From positions 1 through 64,000 of the forward strand of contig NZ_RKMH01000016.1 in the NCBI RefSeq assembly GCF_003797185.1: a DNA stretch of 64,000 nt. Reading direction: 5' to 3'. The notes under the pieces are model-generated. The model ran no database searches. It saw nothing but the letters and a program-made list of their open reading frames with translations, and was not told where the DNA came from. The stretch is from Gordonia oryzae (GTDB taxonomy: Bacteria; Actinomycetota; Actinomycetes; Mycobacteriales; Mycobacteriaceae). Below, piece after piece: positions 9,086-27,665 of this stretch (the stretch's first letter is position 1; the number at the start of each line of letters is the position of its first letter). A program made the position numbers and the translations under genes.

Positions 9086-10942
<1,857 letters not shown>

Positions 10943-11005: not shown

Positions 11006-11012
11006 GGTCGAG

Positions 11013-11054: not shown

Positions 11055-11111
11055 GAGCTCGACAGTACCCCTGATGGTTGCGACGGATCAACCATGGGGT
11101 GGTTGGCCTCT

Positions 11112-11164
11112 CGGTGGTCGTCGATCCGGTGGTCGTCGATCCGGTGGTCGTCGATCCGGTGGTC
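11112..11164. repeat. 15-bp tandem repeat, 3.5 copies
   Basis: The unit CGGTGGTCGTCGATC is present three times without a mismatch (11112-11126, 11127-11141, 11142-11156), with a partial fourth copy running into the stop codon of the FUSC gene. It occupies the gap between FUSC and leuL, where the leuA promoter should lie. Confidence 0.95.
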
Positions 11165-12785
11165 ACCGTGCCGGGCGACCGAGGAGCAACCGGCGCTCGG
11201 TCAGCATTCCGACGAGCGTCGGGTCGAGCGATCGGCTCTGATCTGCACGCCAGCACCATGACAGTGTCTCGTATCCGACCTGACACACCGCCACGTGGTG
11301 TGCCCAGTGCTCGCGGGCCCATGGTGGTTCGTCGCCGGCCGCATCGGTCGCGGCCATCTCCGACTCGAGCAGGGTCCACTGCAGGTCCCGGCGGGTGACC
11401 AGCGTTTCCGCCGCTCCGACCGGCAGGACTGTGGCCGTCTCCAACACGTGGTCGACATCGGCGAGTACGGCGTCATCGGCGCGGGTCGCGCTGCGCCGAT
11501 GCAGGTGGGCGCCGACCAGCCACATCGAGGCGATCGCCAGAACCACGCCCACTAGGGTCTCCAGGAAACGATCGCGGACCGGGACGGTGATGTCTGCCGA
11601 TGGAGTGCCCATGAGCATCGCCAGCGGCGTGATGAAGGTGACCGCCACCGCGTAGTTGCCGACGATCGTCAGCTCTATCAACACGTTGAGCACGGCGATG
11701 ACGACGATGAGCGCGGGCACGCCGAGATCGAGCAGATGGAGGGCTGCGAAGACCGCAAGTCCGACGACGGTGCCGGCCAGCCGGTGAGCGCCACGGATGA
11801 CCCCGCGAATCCGATCGGGTCCCAACTGCAGGACGAGCACCGCGCCGAGGATCGCCCAGTCCGGCCGTGTGAGGCCGACGACGACCGAGGTCGCTCCTGC
11901 GCAGAACGCCGAGACGATCACTCGGCCGGTGGTGATCTGGGCGTGGCTGAATGGTGCCGTGGCCATGCGCAGGCGGTGAGCGACCGTCGGACGGCCCAGC
12001 GGCGGGGAGATCGCCAGTGGGTCGCCAGCGCCGTGCAGTCGATGCATTGACTGCCAGAGCTGTTGTGCCAAAGCGGTATTCGTTGCCGCTGCGTCGTGCA
12101 GCACGGTCCACGCATGCAGAGTCGACAGGGCAACGCCGTGCCGTCGGGCGCGATCGGCGCCACGATTGCCCTCCAGGTAATCCTCCACCGCCGCCATCGC
12201 GGCGAGGGTTGCCGCCGTCTCCGGGCCGTGGGGACGCCACAGGCCGGGCGCCATCGCCACGATCAGGGAACCGACGACACCGGCGGTGGTCGCGACGACG
12301 AGCGGACCGAGATCGACCCCGTGACGGGTCACCACCGAGGCGACCGCCGCGGTGAGTACGAAGAAGAACGGACCGGGTGGTCCAAGGCGCAGAGTGTTGA
12401 CCCCGAAGGTGGCCAGAGCGGCACCGCAGACCAGTAGTGCGACGAGCACCAGATCCTCGGATGTTGATGCGTCGGGTCCGGCCCACGCACCGAGCGCGCC
12501 GTATCCCGCGGACGCCGCCACCAGCAGGACTGCCGCGGTGAGCACCGCTCGCCACCGCACCCGGTAGGGTCGCTTCTCGCCATACAAGGCCGCGAACCCG
12601 CCGAGAGCTGCGAGAAGTGCATCCCGCTCGAAGCCCATCAGGTACAGCGCCGCGGCAGGTATCGCGAATGCCAGACCGGCGCGCAGGGCCGCAGCCCATC
12701 GGCCGCGGATGTCGGGGACGGCGAAGAACGCGCGTCTGATCGACGGACGCGGGGGTGGCACGGGGCGGGGGTCGGCGTGGGGCAT
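11163..12785 (-). CDS. FUSC family membrane protein (aromatic acid exporter-like)
   Basis: The 540-aa protein has two sets of about five transmembrane segments, at roughly residues 30-195 and 285-420, separated by a soluble helical region and followed by a soluble C terminus of about 115 aa. This duplicated layout is that of the fusaric acid resistance / aromatic acid exporter (FUSC) family. Visible features are RAGLAFAIPAAALYLMGFERDALLAALGGF in repeat one and RPDWAILGAVLVLQLGP opening repeat two. It is presumably an efflux or membrane-stress protein in the plasma membrane, with unknown substrate. Its stop codon abuts a 15-bp tandem repeat, and leuA lies downstream on the same strand. Confidence 0.78.
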   Translation of the reverse strand: MPHADPRPVPPPRPSIRRAFFAVPDIRGRWAAALRAGLAFAIPAAALYLMGFERDALLAALGGFAALYGEKRPYRVRWRAVLTAAVLLVAASAGYGALGAWAGPDASTSEDLVLVALLVCGAALATFGVNTLRLGPPGPFFFVLTAAVASVVTRHGVDLGPLVVATTAGVVGSLIVAMAPGLWRPHGPETAATLAAMAAVEDYLEGNRGADRARRHGVALSTLHAWTVLHDAAATNTALAQQLWQSMHRLHGAGDPLAISPPLGRPTVAHRLRMATAPFSHAQITTGRVIVSAFCAGATSVVVGLTRPDWAILGAVLVLQLGPDRIRGVIRGAHRLAGTVVGLAVFAALHLLDLGVPALIVVIAVLNVLIELTIVGNYAVAVTFITPLAMLMGTPSADITVPVRDRFLETLVGVVLAIASMWLVGAHLHRRSATRADDAVLADVDHVLETATVLPVGAAETLVTRRDLQWTLLESEMAATDAAGDEPPWAREHWAHHVAVCQVGYETLSWCWRADQSRSLDPTLVGMLTERRLLLGRPAR

Positions 12786-12959: not shown

Positions 12960-14237
12960 TCAGGGTGCGGGCAGGGCGAGCGGACGCGGCTGCCGCAGTC
13001 GGCGGTGAAGCGCGGTCAGTAGGCCGGCGATGACGCCGTCGGCGACCGGGCGCGCTGGGTGGCGCACGCGCAACTCGAGACCGCCCTCGGAACGGGTGAA
13101 CCAGAACTGTGCCGTGTCGGTCGACGTCACTGCCGAGATGTGTTGTCCGCCAGGAAGTGCCGGGCCGAACTTGCGGTAGTCAAGGTACGAGACCATGAAG
13201 ACGTCCTCGGTGGGCAGATGCGGACGGCACTGCGCCAGAACGTGGTCGAGAGGTAGGCCGGCCAACTCCGACGCGTGACGTAACCACGTGGTGGCACTGG
13301 TCGGGTCGCCCGCATTCACGACGACCGGAGCATTGGATACCAGCCACCCGGCCGTGGAATGCCACCCGGATGTCCGTGATCCCCGCGTGTGTATCGGTAT
13401 CAGCGTCGCCAGCCGCTCCGGACCACCCACGTCGGCCACCGCGGCCGCCAGTGCGGACAGGATCGTCGCGAACGACAAATCCGACAGCAGTTCGGCACAT
13501 TCGGACTGGGTGAGTAGCGCAACGATGACAGTTCGTTGTGGTGCGCGGCCGGTACCGAGGCACAGCGGAAACGCCGGAACGGCACCTTCGGTGAGGGTGA
13601 AGAAGTCGTGCCACACCTGCATGAGTCGCGTTGAGTCCGCATCGAGGCATCGGCTCGGCGACGACGCTTCGGCGGCGTCGATCAGACAGCGATCGGCAAA
13701 ACTGAGTGTCGGACGTCGCGGCGTCGTCGGGTCGATGTAGTACTCGCACAGGCGGCGGAGGACCAGGTCGATGGTGATCGCGTCGGCGTGTGCATGGTCG
13801 AACGCGCAGATCACCGTGTCGTCGAGGATTCCGAAGAAGATGCCGGGAACATCGCCGGCACGGCAGCGCTGCGTGAGCAGGGACTCCACGAAACCGTGCC
13901 ACACCCGCCCGACCACCCTGGGACGGACCTGCACCTGCGTGGCGTCGAAAACGTCTTGCGTTGGGACCACTGACACGGTGAAAGACGCTCGGAGGGCGTC
14001 ATGTTCGCGGAGTACGCGAGCCACCGCACCCGCGACCCTCGACGGATCGGGATGGGCGGCGGGGAGTCTGACCCGTCCGGCCAGCCATGCCCCGCGACCA
14101 CTGCGCTGGGCCCGCAGATGATTGCCCTGATTGAAGCTGACGGGAAGTCCGCGCCGCGCGGGGGCGCCGACCCAGGTGACCGACAACTCGGTGAGGGTGC
14201 CGGTCAACTCGACCTGATCGATGGCGGTGACCCGCAT
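12960..14237 (-). CDS. PapA-type (condensation-fold) acyltransferase A
   Basis: The 425-aa protein has a chloramphenicol-acetyltransferase/condensation-like fold. The catalytic motif sits at residues 148-152 (HAHAD), and Tyr167 completes the HX3DX14Y signature of polyketide-associated (Pap) acyltransferases. A second conserved region, HSTAGWLVSNAPVVV, lies at about residue 300. Such enzymes move a fatty or polyketide acyl group from a thioester onto a hydroxyl. It is the last gene of a three-gene acyltransferase operon: its ATG shares one base with the stop of the upstream gene (TGATG), so translation is coupled. Donor and acceptor are unknown. Confidence 0.75.
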   Translation of the reverse strand: MRVTAIDQVELTGTLTELSVTWVGAPARRGLPVSFNQGNHLRAQRSGRGAWLAGRVRLPAAHPDPSRVAGAVARVLREHDALRASFTVSVVPTQDVFDATQVQVRPRVVGRVWHGFVESLLTQRCRAGDVPGIFFGILDDTVICAFDHAHADAITIDLVLRRLCEYYIDPTTPRRPTLSFADRCLIDAAEASSPSRCLDADSTRLMQVWHDFFTLTEGAVPAFPLCLGTGRAPQRTVIVALLTQSECAELLSDLSFATILSALAAAVADVGGPERLATLIPIHTRGSRTSGWHSTAGWLVSNAPVVVNAGDPTSATTWLRHASELAGLPLDHVLAQCRPHLPTEDVFMVSYLDYRKFGPALPGGQHISAVTSTDTAQFWFTRSEGGLELRVRHPARPVADGVIAGLLTALHRRLRQPRPLALPAP

Positions 14238-15634
14238 CAGCCCACCTCCACGGTATCTGCCGCCACGGCGGCGGCGAGAATGGTGCGGAGCGTGTGAAAC
14301 CAGCGGCGCACCGAGTCAGCGGCCACCGGGTTGTCGGGGCGCTGAGTGGCGATCCGGAGCCCGTCGACATCGCGGGTGATCCACAACGACGCATTGCCGG
14401 TACGGCCCTCGCCGGTGAAGACGAGGAGATCGGAGGTGGCCGGCGGTGCCGGAAACCACCGGAGATCCAGGTAGGTCACCATCTGCGGGCTCGCCACGAC
14501 GGCAGGGTCGATGGAACCTTCGGCGAGGAGGACACTCAACGCGGCATGGACCGGGTCGTCGGCGGCGGTACGCGATCGGGCAAGTGCAGCAGCCGCGTCG
14601 TCGAGTACCTCCACAAGCGCGTCGCCGGTCACCTCGAAGCCGAGTGGTGCGAAGTTACAGAACCACCCCTGGGAGCCGGCGTACTCGTCGGCCCGCCTGG
14701 TGCTGACAACGGTTGCGGTTGCATACCATTCGGCACCGTTCAGTGCGCGCTGCGCGAGTCCGAGTGCCGCGTAGATCACCGCTGCCATCGAGGTGTGGTG
14801 CGCGGAGGCGAGCGCGGCGAGCCGAGCCGTCGTCGCACTGTCGGCGAGGTCGTCGCTGTGGATGTACACGGGTTGCGGAATCACTCCACCTGCACCGGAG
14901 TCGAGGCCCAGAGGTAGAGGGCAGGCGGGGATCGTTCCGCCCGACCGCCCCAGGACCCAACGCCACTCGGTCACGCCCGGCGATTGTGGCGAGATCTGTG
15001 CTGCGCGAGCCGATTCGGCGCCAACGTGCTCAAGGAAGCTGTCATGGACATCGATGACCAGCGGATTGTCAAGCGAACCACGGTATCGCGCGAGGATCTC
15101 GGCGATACCGAGAATCTGCGAAGCGCCATCACCGTAGGCGTGATCTACGCCGTAATACAGATCGAACGATCCTGGACGCGCCACCGCCCCGAACGCGCAC
15201 CCGGGCCACGAATCGAATACCGCCGCAGTCGGAAGGCGTTGTGCCAGATGCTCAAGCGGATTGATCGCGCCGAGCACCGACGCCGTGAAGTCGACGTCCG
15301 TGACGTCGACGACGTACCGCGAGACCGCTGATCCGTCGAGGCGGAACGATGAGCGTAGACCCTCGTGGGCACGGACGAAGTCCGTCAGCGCACGCGCCAT
15401 CCGTTGGGCGTCGAGATCCTCGTGCACCGTGACGACGCTGCAGGTGAAACCGCGGTGCTCCCGACCGGCCTCGCGGTGCCGGAGTGTCGAGGAGATGTGG
15501 TCCTGCTGGAGGAAAGACGGCCCCACCGGATGTGGCGGGGCGGCGGCCGCTGCGGTGAGCGACCGTTCCGATGGTGTCCAGCACACGACGTCACCGGCCG
15601 CGGGTGTCCACTCGCGAGCCGCGCCCAGTCTCAT
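14237..15634 (-). CDS. PapA-type (condensation-fold) acyltransferase B
   Basis: The 465-aa protein belongs to the same fold family as its two neighbours. The active-site motif is HAYGD at residues 165-169 with Tyr184 in place (HX3DX14Y). The N-terminal third contains the expected helix LTDFVRAHEGLRSSFRLDG, and a later SQGWFCNFAPLGFEV segment parallels GWLVSNAP in acyltransferase A. It overlaps the upstream acyltransferase by 4 bp (ATGA) and the downstream one by 1 bp, so all three are probably made in fixed ratio. It is predicted to be cytosolic. It probably acylates a sugar or polyol, which is inference from the adjacent glycosyltransferases. Confidence 0.75.
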   Translation of the reverse strand: MRLGAAREWTPAAGDVVCWTPSERSLTAAAAAPPHPVGPSFLQQDHISSTLRHREAGREHRGFTCSVVTVHEDLDAQRMARALTDFVRAHEGLRSSFRLDGSAVSRYVVDVTDVDFTASVLGAINPLEHLAQRLPTAAVFDSWPGCAFGAVARPGSFDLYYGVDHAYGDGASQILGIAEILARYRGSLDNPLVIDVHDSFLEHVGAESARAAQISPQSPGVTEWRWVLGRSGGTIPACPLPLGLDSGAGGVIPQPVYIHSDDLADSATTARLAALASAHHTSMAAVIYAALGLAQRALNGAEWYATATVVSTRRADEYAGSQGWFCNFAPLGFEVTGDALVEVLDDAAAALARSRTAADDPVHAALSVLLAEGSIDPAVVASPQMVTYLDLRWFPAPPATSDLLVFTGEGRTGNASLWITRDVDGLRIATQRPDNPVAADSVRRWFHTLRTILAAAVAADTVEVG

Positions 15635-17097
15635 CGCCGCTCCACCGAGCGCGTCGTCGACATGATGCGCTCCGTCGGCGCCCCGGTGTCCCAGGTGAGC
15701 TCGCCGTGATCGGCGACCTCGAGCAGAACCGCCCGGTACTCGGCGAGCAAGGCGTGGATCGATGTCGTAGCGATCTCGTTGTTGGGGAAGCGAAGGGAGA
15801 CGTTGATTCCCGCATGTGTGCGATTGATCCAGAGGTAGACCTCGTCGAGGTTGTGAATCCGGCTGCGTAGCACTCGATCCCGATCACCCCAGGAGTCGGC
15901 GCCCGGCACATGTCGGCCGTCGACATAGGAGACCGCGAAGCGCGGCGCCTCGGCGATGCCGAGAAGTGACGCGATACGCGGATGCGGCGCGTGTGCGAGC
16001 GCCGCATGTCTACGCACTCCGGTACTCACCGAAGTCAGCGCAGCACTGAAGGTGTCAGATCCCTCGAGTGACAAGTCGACCGGGACCAGGCCGACGTACC
16101 AGCCGGCCGCGGCCAACGACTGCGGGTCGGTGCGCGTATGCACCGGCATGACGAACCGGATTGAGGAGTTGCCGGTGAGCCGCTGAATCGCCACCGCAAG
16201 TGCGGTGAACGCGCCGCCCGACATCGACGCACCGTGATTCTTGCAGGCCGCGGCGAAGCCGTTGGTCTCCTGCGCGGTCAGTAGCCACCGGGAAATGCTC
16301 GACTGCCAACCCGCGCCGCCTGCCACTGCACCAGCGGGTTGTGTCGGCAATGGCAGGCGAGGCATCTGTAGCCGGCCGTCGTCAGTGGTGAGGAACGATC
16401 GCCACGCCTGCACCGCAGGGTGATCGATGGTCATGGTTTGCGCGGCGTGGAATTCGCGCGCGCAATGGTCGACGTAGGAACCGCACGTCGGCAGCGCCGG
16501 GGCCCGACCCTCGACGAGCGCCCGATGGATCTCGCGGAACTCCGCGATGAGTAGAAGCTGAGTGTAGGCGTCCATCACCGAGTGGTCGGCCGCGACGATG
16601 ACGGTGACCCCCTTGGCCGCCTCGACCGGGCTGTCGGGTTCGATGGTGACGGCTACGACATGCGGCCACCGCACGGCACTCACCTCGCGGGCGAAGAAGC
16701 GCTCGAGATGCCGGTCGACACTGACTCCAGGTGGGGGAGCCTGTTGCGTCCGGGCGCAGATGGTCACCGAGTCGGCGACCACGACAACCCGGGCGTGGGT
16801 ATCGCCGCGACGGGTGACTGTCGTTCGGAACGCATCGTGCCGAACGATCCACGCACGCAGTACTGCGGTGAACACCGAGTGATCGAAGTGGCCGGGCAAC
16901 CGGAAAGCCGTGCCTATCCATGATCCCAGACCCAGGTCGCCGGAATCCGGTGCTGATTCCGAATTATACAGATGTGCAGTGTGATTCGGTGACAGTGGTC
17001 GATCGTCGGACTGCCAACGGTCGGGTTCGACCGTCGGGATCCACTCGGTGATCCGGCCCGCAGGGACCGGATAGTCGGCGAGTTCTGTGTACTCCAT
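15631..17097 (-). CDS. PapA-type (condensation-fold) acyltransferase C
   Basis: The 488-aa protein is the first of three coupled acyltransferases. The HX3D motif is HSVMD at residues 172-176. The position that is Tyr in its two neighbours is His191, an unusual change. Other supporting segments are AVLRAWIVRHDAFRTTVTRRG (condensation-like N-terminal helix) and RFVMPVHTRTD with AAGWYVGLVPVDL in the C-terminal half. The ATG at 17097 is chosen because GGGGGAT stands about 4 nt before it; the frame stays open upstream to 17259 but without family-like residues. It shares the control region at 17098-17709 with the divergent glycosyltransferase operon. Confidence 0.75.
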   Translation of the reverse strand: MEYTELADYPVPAGRITEWIPTVEPDRWQSDDRPLSPNHTAHLYNSESAPDSGDLGLGSWIGTAFRLPGHFDHSVFTAVLRAWIVRHDAFRTTVTRRGDTHARVVVVADSVTICARTQQAPPPGVSVDRHLERFFAREVSAVRWPHVVAVTIEPDSPVEAAKGVTVIVAADHSVMDAYTQLLLIAEFREIHRALVEGRAPALPTCGSYVDHCAREFHAAQTMTIDHPAVQAWRSFLTTDDGRLQMPRLPLPTQPAGAVAGGAGWQSSISRWLLTAQETNGFAAACKNHGASMSGGAFTALAVAIQRLTGNSSIRFVMPVHTRTDPQSLAAAGWYVGLVPVDLSLEGSDTFSAALTSVSTGVRRHAALAHAPHPRIASLLGIAEAPRFAVSYVDGRHVPGADSWGDRDRVLRSRIHNLDEVYLWINRTHAGINVSLRFPNNEIATTSIHALLAEYRAVLLEVADHGELTWDTGAPTERIMSTTRSVERR

Positions 17098-17709
17098 GAC
17101 ATCCCCCGGGGTGACTAGGCGGACAGGAAGCGGAGTGGGCGCGGACCCCGTTCCGCGCACCAATGCCATGGGGAGAATGGCTTCACATCGATAGCCGTGG
17201 TTACGCGTCGACAACACCCACCATCGGGCCGTCGATAGCATGCCGACCGCCATCCCCAACCGCTGACGGCGACACGTCTACGACATTAGGGCGGTCGCCG
17301 TGAGGTGGCCAGCGGAGAAGAGTGAGACATAGGTGACGTTTCGCTGGGCTTGCCGCGGCCGTGAGTAGTGATGCAGAATATTCCGCTCTTGCGTGAATTC
17401 TCGTTGCGCGGCTTCAGTGGGCGCGGCGGCTGCCGATACCGTACGACGTCCATCGGTGATCGTTGTATCCGAATTCATTGATGTGACCCAGAACCCTTTG
17501 TCTTGCCAGGCATCCGAACCTGACCTACGCTCCGCTGGAAAGAACATCACGGGGGTCGTGTTCGATTGCGGTGGCGACGCTTGGGCGCTCCGTATCAACT
17601 TCCTCCGGTGTGTTCACCCGATGTTCATACAATCCGGCACCGACCCCGGCGAACTTATCTCGCTGGCCTGTCAGCGCACTGAATGGCTACGACACAAGGG
17701 ATTACAGTG
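17098..17709. other. divergent control region, noticeably AT-richer
   Basis: This stretch of about 610 bp separates the leftward acyltransferase operon from the rightward glycosyltransferase operon. It contains many more A and T bases than its neighbours (for example around 17360-17560). A minus-strand frame of about 106 codons at 17278-17598 has no ribosome binding site or recognisable motif, and I do not call it. The region probably holds both promoters and regulator-binding sites. Confidence 0.55.
17628..17633 (+). promoter_or_regulatory. possible -10 element (TACAAT)
   Basis: TACAAT lies 77 bp upstream of the glycosyltransferase start, facing rightward. No convincing -35 hexamer stands at the right spacing, so the call rests on the -10 match and on position. 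Confidence 0.25.
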
Positions 17710-18672
17710 ATGATCTCAGATACGAACACCCGCGAGATTGACCACGGTGTGGACAGCACGCTGGCGTCGCGCGGCGCCGGACGGATTCTCTTGTCGGTGG
17801 TGATCCCAGTGTTCAATGAGGCGGACACCATCGGGACGTGTCTGGACCTGCTCATCGATCAGATCGACGACATCGCCGAAATCGTAGTGGTAGACAACAA
17901 TTCGACGGACGCCACGCGTGGGATCGTCGAGGATCGAATGCTGCGGAGCCGTCGAATCCGGATCGTCGAGCAAGCCGAGCAAGGTCTTGTGCACGCACGA
18001 AATGCCGGTATGGACAGCGCGACCGGTGACGTCATCGCCCGCATCGATGCCGACACCCGAATTCCACCGGGGTGGGCGCAGACCATCGTGGAATTCTTCG
18101 AAGCGGATACGCAGGGCCAGTGGTCGGCGCTGTGCGGCCGGGGCGCCGCGTACGGTTTGCCGTTCGAAGGTTCGATGAGCCGGGTTGCCCGGCACCTCGG
18201 ATCCGCGCTACGGCACCTACGTCGCGTCCGGACGACTGTGCCGGAATCATCCGAACCCCGGGAGATACCCGTTCTCTACGGATCGAACATGGTGGTCCGA
18301 CGCGAGGTGTGGTGGGTGATCCGTACCCGCGTGAGCATGCGTCGCGACATCTTCGAAGACGTCGACATGGGTCTGTGTGTCCAGGACATCCACGGGCGCA
18401 ACGCATTTCTGGCGTCGCTGACAGTGGGGGTGTCGCCGCGGAGGATGGAAACCGGTGTGCCGGCCTTTGCCCAGTACATGAGCTTCCTGCCGCGGACACT
18501 GCTCCTGCATCGCCGCTACGGCCTGGCTGCCGGTGCCGCGTTCGGCTATCTGCCGCCGGTCATCGTCGTCCATGCCGTGCGTCTGGTTCTGATCCGCGCC
18601 TACGATGCCGACGCCGGCACGTTCTCGGTGCGCAACCTCCTGCGCACGACGACCGAGCGGGGCCTGCCATGA
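17710..18672 (+). CDS. family 2 glycosyltransferase
   Basis: The 320-aa protein has the GT-A nucleotide-sugar fold of family 2. The N-terminal strand LLSVVIPVFNEADTIGTCLD, the nucleotide-binding VVVDNNSTDAT, the DXD-type metal motif IDADTRIPPGW and the later EDVDMGLCVQ are all visible. A hydrophobic C-terminal segment (about the last 45 residues, GYLPPVIVVHAVRLVLI) suggests membrane association. The ATG at 17710 is preferred because AAGGGA lies 8 nt upstream; a second in-frame ATG at 17683 has no such site. It leads a rightward operon with an acyltransferase-like gene and a GT1 gene, so it probably builds the glycolipid sugar core. The acceptor is unknown. Confidence 0.85.
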   Translation: MISDTNTREIDHGVDSTLASRGAGRILLSVVIPVFNEADTIGTCLDLLIDQIDDIAEIVVVDNNSTDATRGIVEDRMLRSRRIRIVEQAEQGLVHARNAGMDSATGDVIARIDADTRIPPGWAQTIVEFFEADTQGQWSALCGRGAAYGLPFEGSMSRVARHLGSALRHLRRVRTTVPESSEPREIPVLYGSNMVVRREVWWVIRTRVSMRRDIFEDVDMGLCVQDIHGRNAFLASLTVGVSPRRMETGVPAFAQYMSFLPRTLLLHRRYGLAAGAAFGYLPPVIVVHAVRLVLIRAYDADAGTFSVRNLLRTTTERGLP

Positions 18673-18715
18673 CGGCGCCGGCCGCTGCAAGTTCCAATGC
18701 GACGGCGCGCCCACC

Positions 18716-20056
18716 ATGTCGGATCCTGCGGTGACACCGGTTCCGCGGGTGAGCGGGCCGGACGAGGCGTTCCTCCTGGCCGAGGAGAAACTCGGCTATG
18801 GCACATCCATTCAATATTGCTGGGTGCTCGACGACGACCCCGGAATCGGTGCCGTCGAACGGTTCGCCGAGCGGCTGAGTCATGGACAGCTCCATCGCAG
18901 TGTGGGGCCACGCCGGGTGCCGGGGGCGCAACGTCGGTGGCTGCGGTCACCGTCTGCGCCACAGGTGATCTCCGGCGCCCGCATCGATGATGCGGCTATC
19001 GGGGTGTGGGCCGACGAGGTCCTGCGGGCCGCCGATCTCCGGCCTTCTCGCGGACCGGCGTGGCGCCTGCACACCACCACCACGACGCGAGAGCGCCGCG
19101 TCGTGGTGCTCCTGGTCTCGCACCTCGTCGCCGACGGCGAGGCCATCATGCGCGCGATCGTGGCAGCCGCTGACGGCGAGGTCGCGCAGTTACCGGCACC
19201 GCGCAGCGCCCGAGGGGCCCGAGCCATGCGTGCCGACCTGCGCGACAGCGCACGCCAGGCGCGGGCAGCGGGGCGGTCGGCCCGGGCGGTGTGGCGTTCG
19301 GCGCGGCAGAAACGTCGGTCGACGGTCCCCATGCCGACGGCCGGAAACGTCTCGCCTGCACCGACGTACGATCCTTACCGCGCGAGCCTGGTCACCGTCG
19401 ACATTGATCGTGACCGATGGCATACGTGCGCGAAGGCGCATGGCGGCACCGGCAATACCTTGTACACCGCGGTGACCTGTGGTGTGGTGCGCAGGTCGGG
19501 AATCCCTGTCGGAGAACAGCTCCGCGTCAGTGTCGCGGTGAGCAAGCGTGGCGGTCGCGAGGACCAGCGGGCGAATGCCTCGGGCGGGGTGTGGCTCCGG
19601 ATCGACCCTCGGCGCCGCTGGCCCGGCGACCTGGGATACCTTCGATCACTCAGTCGAGAAGCGTTTGCGGCCTATGCGGCGTCGGGTACCGACGTCCCCG
19701 ACGACCTGCTGGCGCTGGTCCGGGTGATGCCACGCCGTGTTCTGGGTGCCGCGCTGCGCAGCGTTCCGGCGCCTGAGGTCAGTGTGTCCAATCTCGGGGT
19801 GCTCGACGAGAAGGTCCGTGCGATCGGCGGTGTGCCGGCATCGTCGTTCCTGCTGCGGATGCTCGTTCGCGACCACGCGGACCGGCCTCTAGTGGTGCCG
19901 GGCCCGGGTCTGTCGACGTGGATCGTCGAGTACGGCGACCGCATCACCATGACGGTTGCCGGTTTCGTGCCTGAATACCACGGCGACGGTGAACGACTCG
20001 CGGGAGTGGTTGGAGACGAGTTGTCCGACTGGGGCCTCCCGCACAGGTTCTGGTGA
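18716..20056 (+). CDS. HxxxD acyltransferase-like protein (WS/DGAT or condensation type), paralog 1
   Basis: The 446-aa protein has HLVAD at residues 136-140, the acyl-transfer HxxxD signature. A basic linker of about 60 residues rich in Arg and Ala follows (RARAMRADLRDSARQARAAG-like), then the half-domain segment GGTGNTLYTAVTCGVV and a C-terminal VSNLG motif typical of wax-ester-synthase/DGAT-like proteins. It is clearly related to the protein at 21471-22790, which has the same three landmarks. The ATG at 18716 is chosen because family-like sequence starts there. It ends with a 4-bp GTGA overlap into the GT1 gene. The probable role is acylation of the sugar product, by inference. Confidence 0.65.
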   Translation: MSDPAVTPVPRVSGPDEAFLLAEEKLGYGTSIQYCWVLDDDPGIGAVERFAERLSHGQLHRSVGPRRVPGAQRRWLRSPSAPQVISGARIDDAAIGVWADEVLRAADLRPSRGPAWRLHTTTTTRERRVVVLLVSHLVADGEAIMRAIVAAADGEVAQLPAPRSARGARAMRADLRDSARQARAAGRSARAVWRSARQKRRSTVPMPTAGNVSPAPTYDPYRASLVTVDIDRDRWHTCAKAHGGTGNTLYTAVTCGVVRRSGIPVGEQLRVSVAVSKRGGREDQRANASGGVWLRIDPRRRWPGDLGYLRSLSREAFAAYAASGTDVPDDLLALVRVMPRRVLGAALRSVPAPEVSVSNLGVLDEKVRAIGGVPASSFLLRMLVRDHADRPLVVPGPGLSTWIVEYGDRITMTVAGFVPEYHGDGERLAGVVGDELSDWGLPHRFW

Positions 20057-21453
20057 CCTCGGCGGTGGTGCACACATCAATGCCTACCGGCGAGCCCGAC
20101 GCCGCGCACCTGGTCTTCCTGCTCTACGGCAGCCGAGGCGACGTCCAACCGGGTCTGTGTCTCGCTCTGGAATCGGCACGCCGCGGACACCGTGTCACCG
20201 TGGCGGTTCCGCCCAACCTGGTGCCGTTGGCCACCGCGGCCGGGGTCGGGGAGGTGGTGCCGATCGGCGCCGACACCAATCGGCAATGGTCCTCGGACGA
20301 GGCACGTGAGGTCCAGCGATCGGCACATCCGTTGCGTAAGGCGACGTTCGCGATCGACACCGCACGCTCGGGCATCGCGGCGTTCGACGACGCGATGATG
20401 GCGACCTTTCTGGACGACGATCCCACGATCGCAGGTGTCGACGCCCTCATCGCCGCACCGCTGTGTCAGGCCCGAGGGCTGGCCGTGGCCGAGCGACTCG
20501 GTGTGCCGCTGACGGTGCTGCGATATGCGCCGATGTCGGAGAACGGCCTGTTCGGGCCGGTCCCCGGGGTCACCGACGGGTGGACACCGCGGTGGACCCG
20601 CCGTGCGTGGCGAATGCACGATAGTGCGGTGTGGTCGGTGATGCGGCACGGCGAGAACCACTTTCGGCGACGAGCAGGTCTGCGCCCGGTTCGCACGGCC
20701 TGTGCGCAGCGACTCAGTCTCGCACGGATCCCACAGATCCAGGCCTACGATCCGGGTGTCGTGCCCGGCCTCGCCGAACAATGGCGGACGGGACCGTCGA
20801 TCAAACCGGTGGTCGGGTTCCTCGATCTGCCCTCCCATGCGCGTGCGACGCTCGACGAAACCTCCGGCGCCGATGTCGATCTGGTGCGTTGGCTCGATGC
20901 CGGAGAGCCGCCCTTGTTCGTGGGTTTCGGGTCGATGCCGATCGCCGATCCGGCGGCGACGCGAGCGACGATCGCCGCGGCCGCCCGGCGCCACGGTATG
21001 AGATGCGTATTCGCCGTCGGTGGTCGGTCGAGGGCGCAGGGAGTCTCCTCGGATTCCGGAGTGTCATCCGGAGCCGACGAGTCGTCCGATATCTACGACG
21101 TGGGTGCAGTGAATCATTCATGGCTGCTGCCTCGGTGTTCTGCGGTGATGCATCACGGGGGCGCCGGAACCACCGCTGCCGGTCTGCGTGCCGGCATCCC
21201 GGCGATCGTGTACTCGTTCACCGCTGAACAACCGTTCTGGGCCGGCCGAATCGCCGACCTCGGGCTGGGCACCGGGCGGCGATTCACCCGGCTCACGATC
21301 GAGACGATGGTCGACGACCTGACGGTTGCCCGCAGCGAGTCCGTCCGTACCGCCGCAGCCACATTCGCGGCGACGATGATCAGTGCCGATCGTGCGGTGC
21401 GCACCGCCGCCGACATCGTCGACGTGCGCCTGCCGCAGGGAGTTGCCGGATAA
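20053..21453 (+). CDS. GT1 (UGT/MGT-like) glycosyltransferase
   Basis: The 466-aa GT-B enzyme has the N-terminal acceptor-domain start FLLYGSRGDVQPGLCLALES and the C-terminal donor-binding signature HHGGAGTTAAGLRAGIPAIV, followed by the sugar-contacting EQPFWA. This arrangement is shared with the glycosyltransferases of mycobacterial glycopeptidolipid and sterol or lipid glycosylation. The GTG start overlaps the stop of the preceding acyltransferase-like gene (GTGA), so they are coupled. An odd insert rich in Ser/Gly/Asp (GVSSDSGVSSGADESSD) lies before the donor-binding loop. Probably it adds a hexose or deoxyhexose to a lipid acceptor, which is inference from family and context. Confidence 0.85.
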   Translation: MTSAVVHTSMPTGEPDAAHLVFLLYGSRGDVQPGLCLALESARRGHRVTVAVPPNLVPLATAAGVGEVVPIGADTNRQWSSDEAREVQRSAHPLRKATFAIDTARSGIAAFDDAMMATFLDDDPTIAGVDALIAAPLCQARGLAVAERLGVPLTVLRYAPMSENGLFGPVPGVTDGWTPRWTRRAWRMHDSAVWSVMRHGENHFRRRAGLRPVRTACAQRLSLARIPQIQAYDPGVVPGLAEQWRTGPSIKPVVGFLDLPSHARATLDETSGADVDLVRWLDAGEPPLFVGFGSMPIADPAATRATIAAAARRHGMRCVFAVGGRSRAQGVSSDSGVSSGADESSDIYDVGAVNHSWLLPRCSAVMHHGGAGTTAAGLRAGIPAIVYSFTAEQPFWAGRIADLGLGTGRRFTRLTIETMVDDLTVARSESVRTAAATFAATMISADRAVRTAADIVDVRLPQGVAG

Positions 21454-21470
21454 CTGCGGTCTGCGGGCGG

Positions 21471-22790
21471 TCAGGCACCCCAGAAGGTGGCAGGCAACCG
21501 CCACCGCTCAAGTTCTTGGGTGAACAGACCACTCAGTGTCGGCTCGTCGGGTACCCGTTCGGGATCGAGAGCGGTCAGACACAGGGTGACCACACCGGCG
21601 CTGCGCGACGACCAACCGCTGATACCACCGTCCATGCGGCGCAACGCTTCCGTGGTGGCGGCCTGCGTCATCGACCGCATGGCGACGGGTCCGGGTCGGC
21701 CGCAGCCGAGGCCGGCGAAGGCGTCGCCCAGTGTCCCGAGATTCGACGCGAGGCATAGTGGCGCCCGGGCATCGGCGGCCAGACGCTCAACGATGGTGTC
21801 GCCGAACGGTTGCGCGATCCGCCCGAGAAGTTCGAGTGCACCCGGAGCGTCGGAGACCGCAGCGAACGCGGCCTTGCTGGCTGCGCGTAGTGGGCGCAGA
21901 TCGCGGCGTCGTGCGGCGCTCACCCGATAGAGTGCGGTGGCGCCGATGGTGGCGTTGGCGCGTCGATCACCGGGCGTTCGCGTCGAGACCGGTAGCCCGA
22001 TCGGTATCTCGTCGCCGTCGGCAACTCGGCCGGTGGCTTCGAGGACGCCGATCACCAGCGCGGTGAACAGCGTGTTGGCGGTTCCGCCGACAGCAGCTGC
22101 AGCAGAGTCGAACTCGGACTCGTCGACCGTGACCACCACCGAAGGGCTCAGCGCTGGGACACGCGGCTGTCCGGCGGTGGGCACCGGCGTGACCGGCGGT
22201 GCCGGCGGGCGGGTGAGAGTCGCCGGCCGTGACATCGCCAGCCTGCGGGCGGCGTCGGCGGCAGCGAGCAGGGTCCGGGCGCCCTCCCTGACCGTGTCAC
22301 CGACGCCGGCTCGGGCGTCGGTCACGTCGAAGGTTTCACCGGACATGGCCTCCTCGATGCCGGTGATCACCGCGCCACCGTCGGCGATGACGTGTGAATT
22401 GACCCATGACACCGCGGTTTCGCCGGTGTCGTCGACGTACACGGCTGTCAGGCGCCATGCCGGGCCCATCACGGCATCCACACCGACCTCGGCCTGCCGC
22501 CGGGCCCACGCCGGTATCTCGTGCGCCGCGATCGCCTTCTCGCAGAACTCGTGGGCACCGGCAGATCGGGTATGAATCCATATGTCCCGCTGCGGAAAAG
22601 GTGTCCGATCCACCAGTCGGGCCAGGCGGCCGCTGCTCAGTCTCCGGCCGAGCGCCGCGAACTCGCCGGGGTCGATGCGGCCGGGCAGGCGCCAGATGGC
22701 CTGGTTGACAACGGGGAGACCGAGGGCATGCTCCATGCGCAGGAAGAGGTCGTCGTCGACGGTGAGGCGTTCGGGTCGGTCCGGTGACAC
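21471..22790 (-). CDS. HxxxD acyltransferase-like protein, paralog 2
   Basis: The 439-aa protein shares layout with the protein at 18716-20056: HVIAD at residues 133-137, an Arg/Ala linker (ARTLLAAADAARRLAMSRP), GGTANTLFTALVIGVL in the second half-domain and ASNLGTLGD near the C terminus. These are marks of the CAT-like acyltransferase superfamily (WS/DGAT and condensation types). The start is placed at GTG 22790, one base past the stop of the ABC permease gene, where the family-like N terminus (ERLTVDDDLFLRME) begins; the open frame continues into the permease gene only as a shadow. It is last in the operon with the exporter, so it may finish the lipid before export. Confidence 0.65.
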   Translation of the reverse strand: MSPDRPERLTVDDDLFLRMEHALGLPVVNQAIWRLPGRIDPGEFAALGRRLSSGRLARLVDRTPFPQRDIWIHTRSAGAHEFCEKAIAAHEIPAWARRQAEVGVDAVMGPAWRLTAVYVDDTGETAVSWVNSHVIADGGAVITGIEEAMSGETFDVTDARAGVGDTVREGARTLLAAADAARRLAMSRPATLTRPPAPPVTPVPTAGQPRVPALSPSVVVTVDESEFDSAAAAVGGTANTLFTALVIGVLEATGRVADGDEIPIGLPVSTRTPGDRRANATIGATALYRVSAARRRDLRPLRAASKAAFAAVSDAPGALELLGRIAQPFGDTIVERLAADARAPLCLASNLGTLGDAFAGLGCGRPGPVAMRSMTQAATTEALRRMDGGISGWSSRSAGVVTLCLTALDPERVPDEPTLSGLFTQELERWRLPATFWGA

Positions 22791-22791
22791 A

Positions 22792-23640
22792 TCAGGCCTG
22801 ACGGAGATACGCGCGCACGGTGATCGGTGCGACGACGACGATGATGGCGACCGCACCGATAAGTGTCCAGCCCACATGCGCGGTGACCTGCCCGTCGTTG
22901 ATCAGCGAGCGTAGCGAGGACACGAGATGTGAGATCGGATTGACCTCGGCGAGCGTGCGCATCCAGCCGGGCATGGTGGTCACCGGCACGAAGATGTTGG
23001 AGGTGAAGGTAAGCGGCATGAGCACCAGCATGGAGACCCCCTGTACTGCAGATGCTTTCGACATGAGCACTCCCATCAGCGCAAAGATCCAGCTGATCGC
23101 GAAGGCTGCGAAAAGGGTCAGGATGATGCCGGTGATGGTGCCGAGCAGACTCGACGGCCGGTACCCGAGGATTACGCCGACGCCGATCGACATGACCGCG
23201 GCGATGAGGTACCGCACGACGTCGGCGATCAGTGAGCCCGCGAGCGGGGCGATGCGCGCGATGGGCAGCGAGATGAAGCGGTCGAAGACTCCGCGATCCA
23301 TGTCCTCACGCAATTGCACGCCGGTGACCACCGAGGCGGTGATCGTCACCGAAACCAGCACGCCCGGAACCAGCTGGGGCAGATAGGCATCCACGCTCCC
23401 GGCGATGGCACCCCCGAAGATGTTGGCGAACATCACGGTGAACACGATCGGGATGACGATCACGTCGAACAGTTGCTGTGGAGTGTGCTTGAGCCGCAAC
23501 AGGCCTCGGCGCGCCATGGTGATGGTGTCCCGAATGGCCTTGCCGATACCGATGTGGTCGACGGGGGTACCCAGGCGCATTCCGGGGGTGGAGATTTCGG
23601 TGGCGGCGTATATGTGGCCACCGCCGGCGGCGGTGCTCAT
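22792..23640 (-). CDS. ABC-2 type permease (DrrB-like)
   Basis: The 282-aa protein has about six transmembrane segments after a cytosolic N terminus of about 60 residues. It opens its core with LKHTPQQLFDVIVIPIVFTVMFANIFGG and has the ABC-2 signature region LREDMDRGVFDRFISLPIAR. This pattern matches DrrB/daunorubicin-resistance permeases, which in mycobacteria export lipids such as phthiocerol dimycocerosates. The ATP-binding subunit overlaps it by 4 bp upstream (ATGA). The neighbouring biosynthetic genes make a lipid or glycolipid the likeliest cargo. Confidence 0.88.
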   Translation of the reverse strand: MSTAAGGGHIYAATEISTPGMRLGTPVDHIGIGKAIRDTITMARRGLLRLKHTPQQLFDVIVIPIVFTVMFANIFGGAIAGSVDAYLPQLVPGVLVSVTITASVVTGVQLREDMDRGVFDRFISLPIARIAPLAGSLIADVVRYLIAAVMSIGVGVILGYRPSSLLGTITGIILTLFAAFAISWIFALMGVLMSKASAVQGVSMLVLMPLTFTSNIFVPVTTMPGWMRTLAEVNPISHLVSSLRSLINDGQVTAHVGWTLIGAVAIIVVVAPITVRAYLRQA

Positions 23641-24650
23641 GCGGCCACCTCCGTGGCCGGCCCGGCGGTCAGGGCGAAGAACACGTCGTCGAGGCTCGGG
23701 CGCCGCACCGAGACCTCCCCGACACCGATGCCCGCTCCGTCGAGCGCCACGACCGCACGAGCCGCGGCCGACGGATCGGTGATCGCGGCGATGAGCTGTC
23801 CGTTCTCGGGTGTGGTGGTGACCGCCGTGTCGAGAGCGGTGCGTAGCACCTCGCGTGCCTCAGAGAGGTGTACCGGGTCGACGGTGATTTCCAACGAGCG
23901 GTCGCCGACCCGATCCTTGAGGGTGTCGGCGTCTCCGGAGGCGATCACGCGCCCGGTGTCGATGACGACCAGGGAATCGGAGAGCTGGTCGGCCTCATCG
24001 AGATACTGCGTGGTGAGCAGGACGGTGCTCCCCTGCGCAACCAGCTCGCGAACACTGGTCCAGACCTGGGTGCGGGTGGTCGGGTCGAGCCCGGTGGTCG
24101 GCTCGTCGAGGAACAGCAGTGCCGGGGTGCGGATCATCGACGCCGCGAGATCGATGCGGCGCCGCATGCCACCGGAGAATCCGCGAACGGGGCGTCGCGC
24201 GGCCGCACTGAGCCCGAACCGGTCGAGGAGATCGGTGGCGCGCGCGCGTGCGGCCCGGCCGCTGTATCCCAGCAACCGCGCGAACAACTCGAGGTTCTCC
24301 GCGGCGGTGAGATCCTCGTCGACCGAGGCGTACTGGCCGGTGAGTGAGATGAGCGACCGCACCGCGGTGGCCTGGGCGGCCACATCGCGGCCGAAGATCG
24401 TCGCGCGTCCGGCGTCGGGGCGGATCAGGGTCGCCAGCATGCGCACGGTGGTCGTCTTGCCTGCGCCGTTGGGGCCCAGGACGCCCAGGATGGTTCCGCG
24501 TGGCACGGTGAGCGACACGTCGTCGACGGCGACGACGTCACCGAAGGTCTTGCGCAGGTGATCGGCGTGGATCGCGGTGTCGGGAAGCGTGTCGCAGTGG
24601 TGGGTGCTGTCGGCGAACATGGTGTCGAGAGTGCCCGCGGCCGCTTTCAT
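23637..24650 (-). CDS. ABC transporter ATP-binding protein (DrrA-like)
   Basis: The 337-aa ATPase has Walker A GPNGAGKT at residues 59-66, a Q-loop around LTGQYASVDEDLT, the ABC signature FSGGMRRRIDLA, Walker B ALLFLDEPTTGLDP and an H-region replaced by LLTTQYLDEADQLSD, where Gln stands in for the usual switch His as in DrrA-type proteins. The C-terminal extension of about 90 residues (LRTALDTAVTTTPENGQ to RRPSLDDVFFALTAG) is typical of DrrA. It pairs with the overlapping permease to form an exporter. A SARP-type regulator gene ends only 18 bp upstream on the same strand. Confidence 0.9.
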   Translation of the reverse strand: MKAAAGTLDTMFADSTHHCDTLPDTAIHADHLRKTFGDVVAVDDVSLTVPRGTILGVLGPNGAGKTTTVRMLATLIRPDAGRATIFGRDVAAQATAVRSLISLTGQYASVDEDLTAAENLELFARLLGYSGRAARARATDLLDRFGLSAAARRPVRGFSGGMRRRIDLAASMIRTPALLFLDEPTTGLDPTTRTQVWTSVRELVAQGSTVLLTTQYLDEADQLSDSLVVIDTGRVIASGDADTLKDRVGDRSLEITVDPVHLSEAREVLRTALDTAVTTTPENGQLIAAITDPSAAARAVVALDGAGIGVGEVSVRRPSLDDVFFALTAGPATEVAA

Positions 24651-24668
24651 TTCGCTTTCACATGCCTC

Positions 24669-27665
24669 TTAGCGCAGGACCGTGAGCAGCGCTGTGCGTC
24701 GTGAATGTGGGCCGTCGCCGAGATCGATGACGGAGAAGTCGCGCCGGTACCGGGCGCCCCGGGCGGCGCCGGCGAGGACGTCGGTGGGTGCGGTGCCGGT
24801 GACGAGGGACACCGCGGCCGAGGCGGCGCCCAAGGCCGGCAGATTGGCCGCCGGAGCTGCGGCCAAGCGCGACAAGGAAATCCGCAGCGACTCGGCGGCC
24901 AGGCGGGCCGCGACCATCTCGCCGGTCCGCGCCAGGATCACCGCGCGCACCCCGTGCAGATAGGCGCAGTGGGCATCGGTGGGCGGCCCGACGATCTCGA
25001 TGGCGCGCTCGGCGGACCTGCGGGCTCCCGACGGGTCGTCGCCGACCCGCAGGTCGGCGAGCGCGGCGTGTGCGGTCGCGACGAACGCTCTCGGGGTGTC
25101 ACCGGAATCGCGCAGACAGGTCTCGAGCAACTCGACCGCGACATCCGGCGCGGAGTCCGACAAGGCGATCGCCTGATGAACCCGGGTGCGGGAACTCTCC
25201 TCCTGGAAGCCCAGGGCGGCATAGTCATCCGCGGCGCGGGCGAACAGGGTTGCCGCACCTGCACGGTCGCCGAGGAGCAGGTGGCCGCGGCCGAGACGGT
25301 GCCGTGCCGCGGCGGTCAACCATGGATGCCCGGCGAGCTCGGCGGCGACGACCGCTCGCAGCGCCGACCGCCGGGACATCGACGGCGCGGCCGCGAATTC
25401 GGCGATGTCGGAGCGCGCGATCTCCGCGACAGCGGCCACCACCGGGTTGGCAGACCGTGATGCCCGCGCGAGGACTTGCGCGAGTCGCCGGGGCGAGCCG
25501 TTGACGGCCTCGACCAGTGGGGCGAGATGTGCGGCGGGCGGGTGCCGCCGAGCCGTCCGCCGCAATGCGGTACGGGCCCGGCCGGCTGCCCGATACCTGC
25601 CGAGAGCAATGAGATAGCCGGTGGCGCAGAGGAGTCCGGGAATCTCGGCCGAGTCGCCGCAGCCGGGGTCGTCACAGCCCGAGACAGCTGCCTCGGCGAG
25701 GTCGCCGAGGCCCGGGTGTCCGCCGGTGCGCACCACCCGCCATAGGGTGATCGGCAGCAGCCGGGCGGGCGCACCGGGGTCGGCCGGGTCGGGGTCGCCG
25801 ACGACGGAGTCGAGGATCGCGAGCACCGCGTCGGTGGTCTCGTCGAGTCGCGCGAAGGCCTTGACGACGTCGGTGCCCGACAGTGTTCCCGCGACATCGG
25901 TCACGAGGCGGCTCGCCCAGGCGATCTTCTCGCGACGCAGTGCGGCCTCGCGCGCCGGATCGGCGGCGGTGTGGGCGCGCGCGAATTCCCGGACCGTCTC
26001 GGTGAGTCGATACCGGGTCGCCCCGTCCGGATGGTCGACCACGACGGCGAGCGAATGATTGCAGACCTCGGCCAGTGATTGCTCGGTCACCTCGGCGAAC
26101 GTCAGAGCGTCGTCGAGGCGGACGTCACCGGGAAGCGAGGCGAGCACCTCGAGTGTGCGCTGTGCATTGTCGGGTAATAATTCCCAACTCGTCGAAACGA
26201 TCTCGGACAAGGAGCGTCGGCGTCCACCGGTCGGGGTGAGGAGTTCGAAACGGGAATCGACACGTTCGAGGAGGTCGCGCGGCGACAGGTGCCTCAACTG
26301 CGCGGCAGCGAGTTCGATGGCCAGTGGTGAACCGTCGAGCCGTGTGCACAGCTCGGCGAACACTGCGACGTCGGTCTGTATCTCCGGTCGTAGTGCGCGA
26401 ATCCGCCGTTCTAACAGTGCGGCGCCACGCTCGGGTGGCAACGGGGGCACCGTGAGGTTCCGCTCATCGACCAAGCCTAGTCCGATGCGGCTGGTGGCCA
26501 CGATGGTGAGATCGTCACGTCGGGAACGGATGTCGGTGATCAGATCGGCGACGAAGTCAACCAGATGCTCGCAGCCGTCGAGTACGATCACCGCGCCGGC
26601 GGCGGCCAGGTGTGCCAGGGCGGCGCCGGCAATCCCGGACGCGGACACCGGAGAAGCGGTGGGTGTCGCGGCGGTGCCCTGCTCGGGCAGTGCACCGCGT
26701 CCGAGCGCCGCGGCCACCGCCGCGCGCACATCGTCGGGGGCACGTGCGGCGGACAGATCCACGAAGACGTTCATCGGGGTATGGACGGCGATGTACTCGG
26801 TGACCAGTCGCGTCTTGCCGATCCCGCCGGGACCCAGCACCGTCACCACCGACGACTCACGCAGTGCCGCGGTCAACTGCGTCATCATCTCGGGATCGGC
26901 GAGGTACTCGTCGGAGGGGGGTGGGGGAGTCCGTGGCATCGGTGCGTAGGTGAGTGCGGCGCTGTGGGCCGCCGCCAATTCGGGTCCGGGGTCGGCGCCG
27001 AGTGCCTCGGCGAGCCCGGCGGCGATCCGGGCATGGATCTGCAAGGCGGCGTTGGGATCTCCGGCCGCGAGAACGGCTCGCATGTGTACTGCGGCGAGAT
27101 GCTCGTCGAGTGGTCGGCGCTCGCGCGCCATCGCCAACTCGGTGGCCACGGTCTGCGGTTCGGTGCGTAACCGCCGGCGCCAGTCGGCTTCCTGCAGAAT
27201 GCGAAATGCGCGATCGGCGCGGGCGGTGAGCCGTGCGCGCAGCTCGCCGTCCGGAAGGTCGGTGCCCGGCTCACCGCGCCAATTCTGCAGCCCGGTTGGG
27301 TATTCGAGTTCGGCGGACCGCGCTGACCGGGAGAGATCCTCGACGACAGCGAGATCTGACACCGGACCATCGGTGACGAGGCGATACCCCGCCGCCGACC
27401 CGGCAATCATCTGGGCGCCGAGACTCTTCCGCAGACGCGAAATCTGGGTCTGGACCGCCCCATTCGGGTTCTGGGGAGGCCGGTCCGGCCAGGCGTCGGC
27501 CACGAGCGCTTCGATTCCGACGGGTCGCGGGTGCGACAGGACGAGTGACACCAACAGGCTGCGCGCCCGCCCCGAGGTGACCGGCGTCGCCTCGCTCGCA
27601 GTGGTGAACACGCAGACCGGCCCCAGGACGCCGATCCGCGGGTGGGTCCGGGGAGCCTCGGTCAC
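24669..27665 (-). CDS. AfsR/SARP-type transcriptional regulator
   Basis: The 998-aa protein has three parts. An OmpR-like winged helix (residues about 1-95: LVLSHPRPVGIEALVADAWP and QTQISRLRKSLGA) is followed by a bacterial transcriptional activation domain (about 100-250). An NB-ARC-like ATPase carries Walker A GPGGIGKTR at about residue 280 and a Walker B-like VIVLDGCEHLVDF. Helical repeats fill the remainder. This is the architecture of AfsR-like activators that drive secondary-metabolite clusters. The start is GTG at 27665. It is first in the minus-strand unit with the ABC exporter and paralog 2, so it probably controls the glycolipid locus. Confidence 0.9.
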   Translation of the reverse strand: MTEAPRTHPRIGVLGPVCVFTTASEATPVTSGRARSLLVSLVLSHPRPVGIEALVADAWPDRPPQNPNGAVQTQISRLRKSLGAQMIAGSAAGYRLVTDGPVSDLAVVEDLSRSARSAELEYPTGLQNWRGEPGTDLPDGELRARLTARADRAFRILQEADWRRRLRTEPQTVATELAMARERRPLDEHLAAVHMRAVLAAGDPNAALQIHARIAAGLAEALGADPGPELAAAHSAALTYAPMPRTPPPPSDEYLADPEMMTQLTAALRESSVVTVLGPGGIGKTRLVTEYIAVHTPMNVFVDLSAARAPDDVRAAVAAALGRGALPEQGTAATPTASPVSASGIAGAALAHLAAAGAVIVLDGCEHLVDFVADLITDIRSRRDDLTIVATSRIGLGLVDERNLTVPPLPPERGAALLERRIRALRPEIQTDVAVFAELCTRLDGSPLAIELAAAQLRHLSPRDLLERVDSRFELLTPTGGRRRSLSEIVSTSWELLPDNAQRTLEVLASLPGDVRLDDALTFAEVTEQSLAEVCNHSLAVVVDHPDGATRYRLTETVREFARAHTAADPAREAALRREKIAWASRLVTDVAGTLSGTDVVKAFARLDETTDAVLAILDSVVGDPDPADPGAPARLLPITLWRVVRTGGHPGLGDLAEAAVSGCDDPGCGDSAEIPGLLCATGYLIALGRYRAAGRARTALRRTARRHPPAAHLAPLVEAVNGSPRRLAQVLARASRSANPVVAAVAEIARSDIAEFAAAPSMSRRSALRAVVAAELAGHPWLTAAARHRLGRGHLLLGDRAGAATLFARAADDYAALGFQEESSRTRVHQAIALSDSAPDVAVELLETCLRDSGDTPRAFVATAHAALADLRVGDDPSGARRSAERAIEIVGPPTDAHCAYLHGVRAVILARTGEMVAARLAAESLRISLSRLAAAPAANLPALGAASAAVSLVTGTAPTDVLAGAARGARYRRDFSVIDLGDGPHSRRTALLTVLR

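Follow-up and report, generated by a model that had tools for sequence, protein, structure and literature searches.

The locus and its setting

The locus studied here raises the question of which molecule its neighbouring acyltransferases, glycosyltransferases and ABC exporter build together, and whether that molecule has already been described. It lies in the window, the whole stretch of 64,000 nucleotides that was analysed, which belongs to contig 9 (C9) of a 4.52 Mb genome. Ten open reading frames across 12960-27665 are arranged as three units: the plus-strand genes GT2-HX1-GT1 lie between two minus-strand units, AT3-AT2-AT1, whose gene ends overlap, and SARP-DrrA-DrrB-HX2. The open reading frames together with their Pfam families confirm the ten genes in three units of the first-pass annotation:

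12960..14237, minus strand: AT1, PapA2-type acyltransferase, 425 aa; HX3DX14Y complete; Condensation (Pfam) below cut-off
14237..15634, minus strand: AT2, PapA2-type acyltransferase, 465 aa; HX3DX14Y complete; Condensation 6e-12; PapA2 (6aef) E 1e-26
15631..17259, minus strand: AT3, PapA2-type acyltransferase; Condensation 8.5e-22; likely start 17097
17098..17682, no strand: AT3/GT2 divergent intergenic region, candidate shared control region, from the alignment with L041 and L042
17683..18672, plus strand: GT2-family glycosyltransferase, first gene of the cassette; Pfam Glycos_transf_2 1e-30
18605..20056, plus strand: HX1, HxxxDG acyltransferase; likely start 18716; no Pfam match
20053..21453, plus strand: GT1-family glycosyltransferase; EryCIII-like_C and Glyco_transf_28
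21471..22877, minus strand: HX2, HxxxDG acyltransferase; likely start 22790; no Pfam match
22792..23640, minus strand: DrrB-like ABC-2 permease; ABC2_membrane 3e-27; TIGR00025 1e-24, below cut-off
23637..24650, minus strand: DrrA-like ATPase; TIGR01188 (drrA) 343.1 bits against a cut-off of 312.45
24669..27665, minus strand: AfsR/SARP-type regulator, 998 aa; BTAD 2.6e-11; AfsR model 6.5e-16, far under cut-off

Genes for LeuA and a FUSC-type membrane protein border the locus at one end, and the opposite flank carries those for a nitroreductase and an MFS pump. LeuA, near the acyltransferase end within 9086-12785, is by eye also present in the related loci L060 and L063, and this common neighbour hints at a fixed chromosomal site. 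A domain search of C9:1-64000 gave no ketoacyl-synthase and no AMP-binding match, the AMP-binding match closest to the window on this contig being located at C9:71073, and at this sensitivity the earlier statement that the window contains no PKS, NRPS or acyl-CoA ligase holds. No MmpL exporter was found when the ten genes and four flanking genes were scanned. Plasmid records gave only short matches inside the DrrA gene, and viral contigs no relative of DrrA.

In mycobacteria the acyltrehalose loci (SL-1, PAT, TPP, LOS) carry PKS, FadD and MmpL genes, the LOS-type loci in the form PKS-PapA-GT-MmpL, and the DIM/PGL locus is organized as fadD26-ppsA-E-drrABC-papA5. Membership of the window in the SL-1, PAT, TPP, LOS, GPL or DIM systems is ruled out, as no PKS, NRPS or FadD match is present in it, and on the same ground the suggested comparison with GPL, trehalose-polyphleate, sulfolipid and phenolic glycolipid loci ended without a match. 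PapA2 and PapA1 from the sulfolipid and polyacyltrehalose loci share fold and HxxxD motif with AT1-AT3, but the window differs from these loci in its three tandem acyltransferases, its DrrAB pump and its added GT and HX genes. The DIM/PGL locus resembles it in having a Drr-type exporter beside an HxxxD acyltransferase and is unlike it in its Pps and FadD proteins, whereas GPL loci contain NRPS (mps) genes and the window has no AMP-binding domain. The genome does encode a PapA5 orthologue (E 9.5e-122 to PapA5), located on contig 12 and thus outside the window, and relatives of PapA5 (E <= 1e-60) are found in 4 of 59 Gordonia genomes. On contig 12 we also observed a locus resembling that for DIM, phthiocerol dimycocerosate (G000:C12:328.8-360.5 kb, from L159 6819 to L160 19529). 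It comprises FadD, DrrA, a pair of DrrB-like permeases, this PapA5 orthologue and five modular PKS, the last of which has a condensation domain at its end.

The acyltransferases

All three AT proteins possess an intact HxxxD catalytic motif. The full HX3DX14Y motif that had been proposed for the three of them is complete in AT1 (H148/D152/Y167) and AT2 (H165/D169/Y184), but AT3 with H226/D230 (numbered in the 542-aa frame) shows a histidine at the position of the tyrosine, which is conserved in 114 of the 119 matches labelled AT3, some of these being the same locus fetched twice. AT3 likely starts at 17097 (MEYTELADY) because its homologues align from there, resulting in a protein of about 488 aa compared to 542 aa for the longest open reading frame. 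The nearest solved relative is PapA for each of them, found by sequence for AT2 and for a profile of 12 AT3 matches (PapA2 6aef at 1e-50) and by fold for AT1, which is 17% identical to PapA2 and gave no match when PDB was searched by sequence. In the AT tree, which like all trees in this work comes from a quick search with SH-aLRT support only, the AT2 rows form one side of a branch with support 100, and the window proteins group with those of L060 and L061 and then with L054, L063, L064 or Corynebacterium. One Nocardioides row that is AT3 by best hit is placed among the AT1 rows. AT1-AT3 are PapA-like; trehalose as their acceptor is a guess from the similarity to PapA2, and condensation-fold enzymes acylate many kinds of acceptor.

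HX1 and HX2 had been described as two paralogous HxxxD acyltransferase-like proteins. Both contain the motif, and across 48 aligned HX proteins the H, D and G of HxxxDG are invariant, but they are not recent duplicates: HX1 and HX2 are 28% identical and fall into two separate clades, each with support 100, which rules out a recent tandem duplication. HX1 likely starts at 18716: in L041 an ATG overlaps the stop codon of GT2, but in the window this ATG is not in frame with HX1. For its part, the likely start of HX2 is a GTG at 22790, one base past the DrrB stop codon; alignments and fold were computed with 18713 (HX1) and 22799 (HX2) as ends, which adds 1 and 3 residues. The proteins combine the fold of the BAHD/condensation superfamily with the HxxxD motif, and PF16911 (PapA_C), the trait of the PapA5 family, was seen in one of the 48 HX only (E 0.041), which does not assign them to that family. 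The WS/DGAT model TIGR02946 matched 17 of the 48 (best 9.3e-11) and PF03007 two (best E 0.014), with HX2 of the window matching neither. Neither HX1 nor HX2 has a match in Pfam or PHROGs, and HX1 found a single PDB entry by sequence at E 0.57. HX1 clusters with proteins from type D-like loci in Williamsia, Nocardia and Rhodococcoides, and HX2 with those from type B and type C loci (see below for these types). The HX proteins look like a conserved acyltransferase family that has no Pfam model or name.

Glycosyltransferases, exporter and regulator

That the locus encodes a GT2 and a GT1 glycosyltransferase is borne out by Pfam (Glycos_transf_2; EryCIII-like/GT28), and the best solved relatives of GT1 are sterol 3-beta-glucosyltransferase and GtfA/GtfB. 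The DrrAB-like exporter was also recovered, with DrrA above the cut-off of its model and DrrB matching ABC2_membrane while the permease models stay under their cut-offs; DrrB is only about 26% identical to the DIM-like Drr permeases of the same genome. For the AfsR-like activator the BTAD domain stands, and the match to the AfsR model lies far under the cut-off. The intergenic region 17098-17682 contains long blocks that are invariant in three species and is a candidate SARP operator or leader; it shows no listed consensus promoter, and the promoter and terminator scan performed no better than shuffles. Elsewhere in the genome (G000:C22, L040 9097-14170) a second DrrA-DrrB pair occurs with a SARP-like gene and no AT or HX match in 20 kb.

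Conservation and cluster types

Two further species (L041 in G034 and L042 in G028) possess all ten genes with order and strand kept and 83-95% protein identity, and dN/dS between the window and these two ranges from 0.10 to 0.31 for each of the ten genes. In order to follow the parts through the genus we used a profile built from HX genes located beside AT3, which at E <= 1e-20 marks 38 of 59 Gordonia genomes, and the identical 38 are marked by AT3 matches at E <= 1e-150, with none in one set only and kinship uncorrected. This AT3 cut was chosen after the gap between 1e-159 and 1e-119 had been seen; below it a weaker AT3-like gene is found in 59 of 59 genomes among the matches listed. Each of the 49 strong AT3 genes has an HX within 6.6 kb (kinship again uncorrected), and in the other direction 69 of 79 HX places, some of them gene fragments, have a strong AT3 within 15 kb and 10 do not.

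A scan of named genomes with AT3, from which the best 80 of 160 matches were taken, gave 76 loci, 19 of them shorter than 21 kb and some near-copies or overlapping (L093 and L094 come from one shared contig stretch); as only these best 80 of 160 were used, a locus missing from the set carries little weight. Open reading frames in the relatives were called by a heuristic of length and GC3, and some missed genes were recovered by tblastn or profile. Among the 76 loci HX is present in 71 (the exceptions being L084, L087, L121, L124 and L128), GT1 in 58 and GT2 in 24; 28 loci match DrrA, 28 match DrrB and 17 carry a mycoloyltransferase-like gene, all counted within the best 80 of 160 matches. The latter gene (PF00756; nearest solved Cmt1, PS1 and Ag85) is located between AT3 and either DrrA or GT1 in L039, L106, L131 and others, that is in type C and Williamsia clusters. 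The locus neither stands alone nor is mycobacterial, but is one variant of an AT3-AT2-AT1 + HX + GT1 module present, though not with all parts at every locus, in Gordonia, Williamsia, Rhodococcus/Rhodococcoides, Nocardia, Corynebacterium, Nocardioides and Promicromonospora. The co-occurrence of acyltransferases, glycosyltransferases and ABC pair that had been named as a check is found as linkage in three species, but HX without AT3 and AT loci without DrrA also exist. The record titled Kitasatospora arboriphila (L122) has a locus much like that of Williamsia muralis (L115, L119), and the strain may be mislabelled.

Comparison of the variants revealed several cluster types in Gordonia. Type B (L053, L054) has the order SARP-DrrA-DrrB-HX2-GT1-AT3-AT2-AT1, with genes 43-73% identical to those of the window except GT1 (32-34%), and neither GT2 nor HX1 was found in it. 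In type D (L043-L048, L057) GT2 is 56-63% and HX1 42-45% identical to the window, and GT1 47-52% in six of the seven stretches, L057 showing only a 33% GT1. The GT1 of the window is located in the type D clade of the GT1 tree (12 rows, support 100), apart from the GT1 of type B. Where type B holds its single GT1 between AT3 and HX2 the window has the GT2-HX1-GT1 cassette in opposite direction. The cassette is shared with L061 (G. jinhuaensis), which lacks an HX2 at the corresponding position, and with L060 (G. desulfuricans), which ends at a contig edge, and SARP adjoins DrrA in L053, L054 and L061, with SARP-DrrA-DrrB standing beside AT3-AT2-AT1 in L061 as in type B. By these comparisons the parts of the locus are of mixed ancestry, and it is apparently a hybrid in which a GT2-HX1-GT1 cassette from one cluster type replaced the single GT1 of another, this being the direction of exchange that we infer. 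On contig 14 the genome also contains a cluster of type C (L039), and type C clusters adjoin genes that by eye resemble those of steroid or acyl-CoA catabolism.

The proposed product

Starting from the gene families, the intact HxxxD motifs and the conserved linkage, all read from the sequences, we consider it probable that the locus directs the synthesis and export of a cell-envelope glycolipid, a polyacylated oligosaccharide that most likely has trehalose as its core. AT3, AT2 and AT1, as PapA2-type enzymes dependent on CoA or a carrier, would place the primary acyl chains on the sugar core, and GT2 and GT1 would attach one or two more sugars. HX1 and HX2 (WS-DGAT/PapA5-like) may then attach the last acyl groups, either to an added sugar or to the free hydroxyl of a hydroxyacyl chain attached earlier, before DrrAB would carry the product across the membrane. 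SARP would presumably turn the locus on, and lipid metabolism encoded elsewhere would supply the acyl donors. Points against this reading are the absence of PKS and FadD from the window and of a sugar-making gene from the ten, the histidine in the AT3 motif, the HX places that have no strong AT3 nearby and the AT3 loci that have no HX. The original idea of one glycolipid locus with recruited acyl donors survives insofar as the parts co-occur and stay linked and the ATs are PapA-like; its mycobacterial and solitary character does not.

The strongest alternative, which shares its core with the proposed polyacylated glycolipid and to which we assign a substantial though less than even chance, is that the product is a succinoyl trehalolipid or oligosaccharide trehalolipid biosurfactant of the type known from Rhodococcus. 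Rhodococcus sp. I2R produces succinoylated esters of di- and trihexoses that contain 3-hydroxyacyl chains and in many cases secondary acyls, in the form of di-, tri- and tetraesters plus acyloxyacyl chains, and its genome is more than 98% identical (ANI) to that of strain KRD197 (PMC8396431). The accessible text of that paper ties four clustered papA genes to the succinoyl saccharide esters by annotation only and reports no gene test; it puts the similarity between TlsA and the I2R PapAs at about 30%, names of this locus only the papA genes, mentions many glycosyltransferases and acyltransferases on several contigs, and calls the genetic basis and regulation of such esters poorly understood (PMC8396431). 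In KRD197 we found a homologous locus (L082) with AT3-AT2-AT1, two HX, one GT1 and a fourth AT3-like gene, and no match to GT2, DrrAB or SARP. It contains successive open reading frames of 1461, 1431 and 1488 bases, and the spacing of 1478 bases between the first two agrees with the paper; the length published for the third gene (1404) has no counterpart at the expected position, and the spacing of the fourth deviates by 19 bases. The length match alone is weak because two of the lengths are also obtained from alternative start codons, one of them within an unrelated open reading frame, and the identification of L082 with the I2R papA cluster rests on the gene order and the 1478-base spacing. 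Since a third hexose needs a glycosyltransferase and secondary acyls need extra acyltransferases, the GT1 and HX of L082 would be fitting candidates for these steps, and an L082-type module is a candidate genetic basis for I2R-type esters. A disaccharide octadecanoic acid glycolipid has also been reported from Gordonia sp. IITR100 (PMC9009618). Against identity with these lipids, the window shares the AT3-AT2-AT1 tandem, HX and GT1 with L082 but represents another cluster type that has GT2, DrrAB and SARP; HX and GT1 of the L082 relatives L066, L070 and L071 belong to other clades, and the ATs are 27-43% identical to those of the Rhodococcus/Rhodococcoides loci (L066 and L068-L083, excluding L067 and L080 from Corynebacterium). 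The earlier term undescribed consequently needs qualification: the literature searched, which included few subscription papers, assigns no product to this gene set, and the main text of a survey of Gordonia gene clusters lacks the words glycolipid, saccharide and trehalose (PMC9680422), but a homologous Rhodococcus papA locus has been linked to a product in print, by annotation. The product of this cluster variant is possibly undescribed.

An acceptor other than trehalose, such as a glycosylated polyketide, a sterol-like or carotenoid aglycone or a polysaccharide of the envelope, is in our view unlikely. DrrAB-like pumps export antibiotics, and this, the solved relatives of GT1 and the apparent catabolism genes near type C clusters would fit such an acceptor, but all three ATs are PapA2-like and no aglycone-making family recurs with the module among the gene maps listed. 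Least probable is that the ten genes adjoin one another but serve different functions, an antibiotic-type unit (DrrAB/SARP) lying next to a unit for envelope acylation, as might be read from L040 and from the 48 of 76 AT loci that have no DrrA match (best 80 of 160 matches; 19 of the 76 shorter than 21 kb), because the ten stay together in three species, type B and L061 keep SARP-DrrA-DrrB next to the ATs and HX2 likely starts directly past the DrrB stop.

For the polyacylated glycolipid the comparison turns an orphan locus into a testable proposal, namely which sugars and acyl groups differ between type B and hybrid clusters. Coat glycolipids can affect phage uptake: in M. smegmatis, phage adsorption is altered when the LOS gene island is lost (PMC11139207).

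HX genes in other genera

Several actinobacterial families have HX genes next to those for PapA-type enzymes. Among 150 genomes sampled evenly across the order, HX (E <= 1e-50) was detected in 15, ten from one genus of the same family (g23, by its gene content guessed to be Mycobacterium), two from Gordonia including our own genome and three from others. We fetched 14 loci from such matches, 11 hand-picked from g23 and three from other genera. A PKS, PapA or MmpL match lies inside the 20 kb stretch in 10 of the 11 g23 loci, and L146 and L150 show PKS-PapA-HX-HX in a row; L151 and L155, from other genera, had no match to any glycolipid marker tested. The g23 loci L146, L149 and L150 resemble LOS-type loci, with GT1 near PapA and HX in L149 and L150, and are unlike the window in having PKS and, in some, FadD, Sap or MmpL. 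It is tempting to speculate, though we hold it somewhat improbable as a whole, that HX is a new family that esterifies the hydroxyl of sugar-bound hydroxyacyl chains and so forms the acyloxyacyl layer of actinobacterial glycolipids, that clusters trade GT-HX cassettes and thereby alter the outer decoration of the lipid, and that the window would be the product of such a trade.

Two of the fetched loci show unusual arrangements. In L145 (6618-13890, g23) five tandem HX genes follow one PapA-like gene ahead of MmpL, and in L156 (8961-10370) an HX is located between GT1-type genes, with a nearby long frame that weakly matches the AT profile and that we guess to be NRPS-like, an arrangement reminiscent of a GPL locus.
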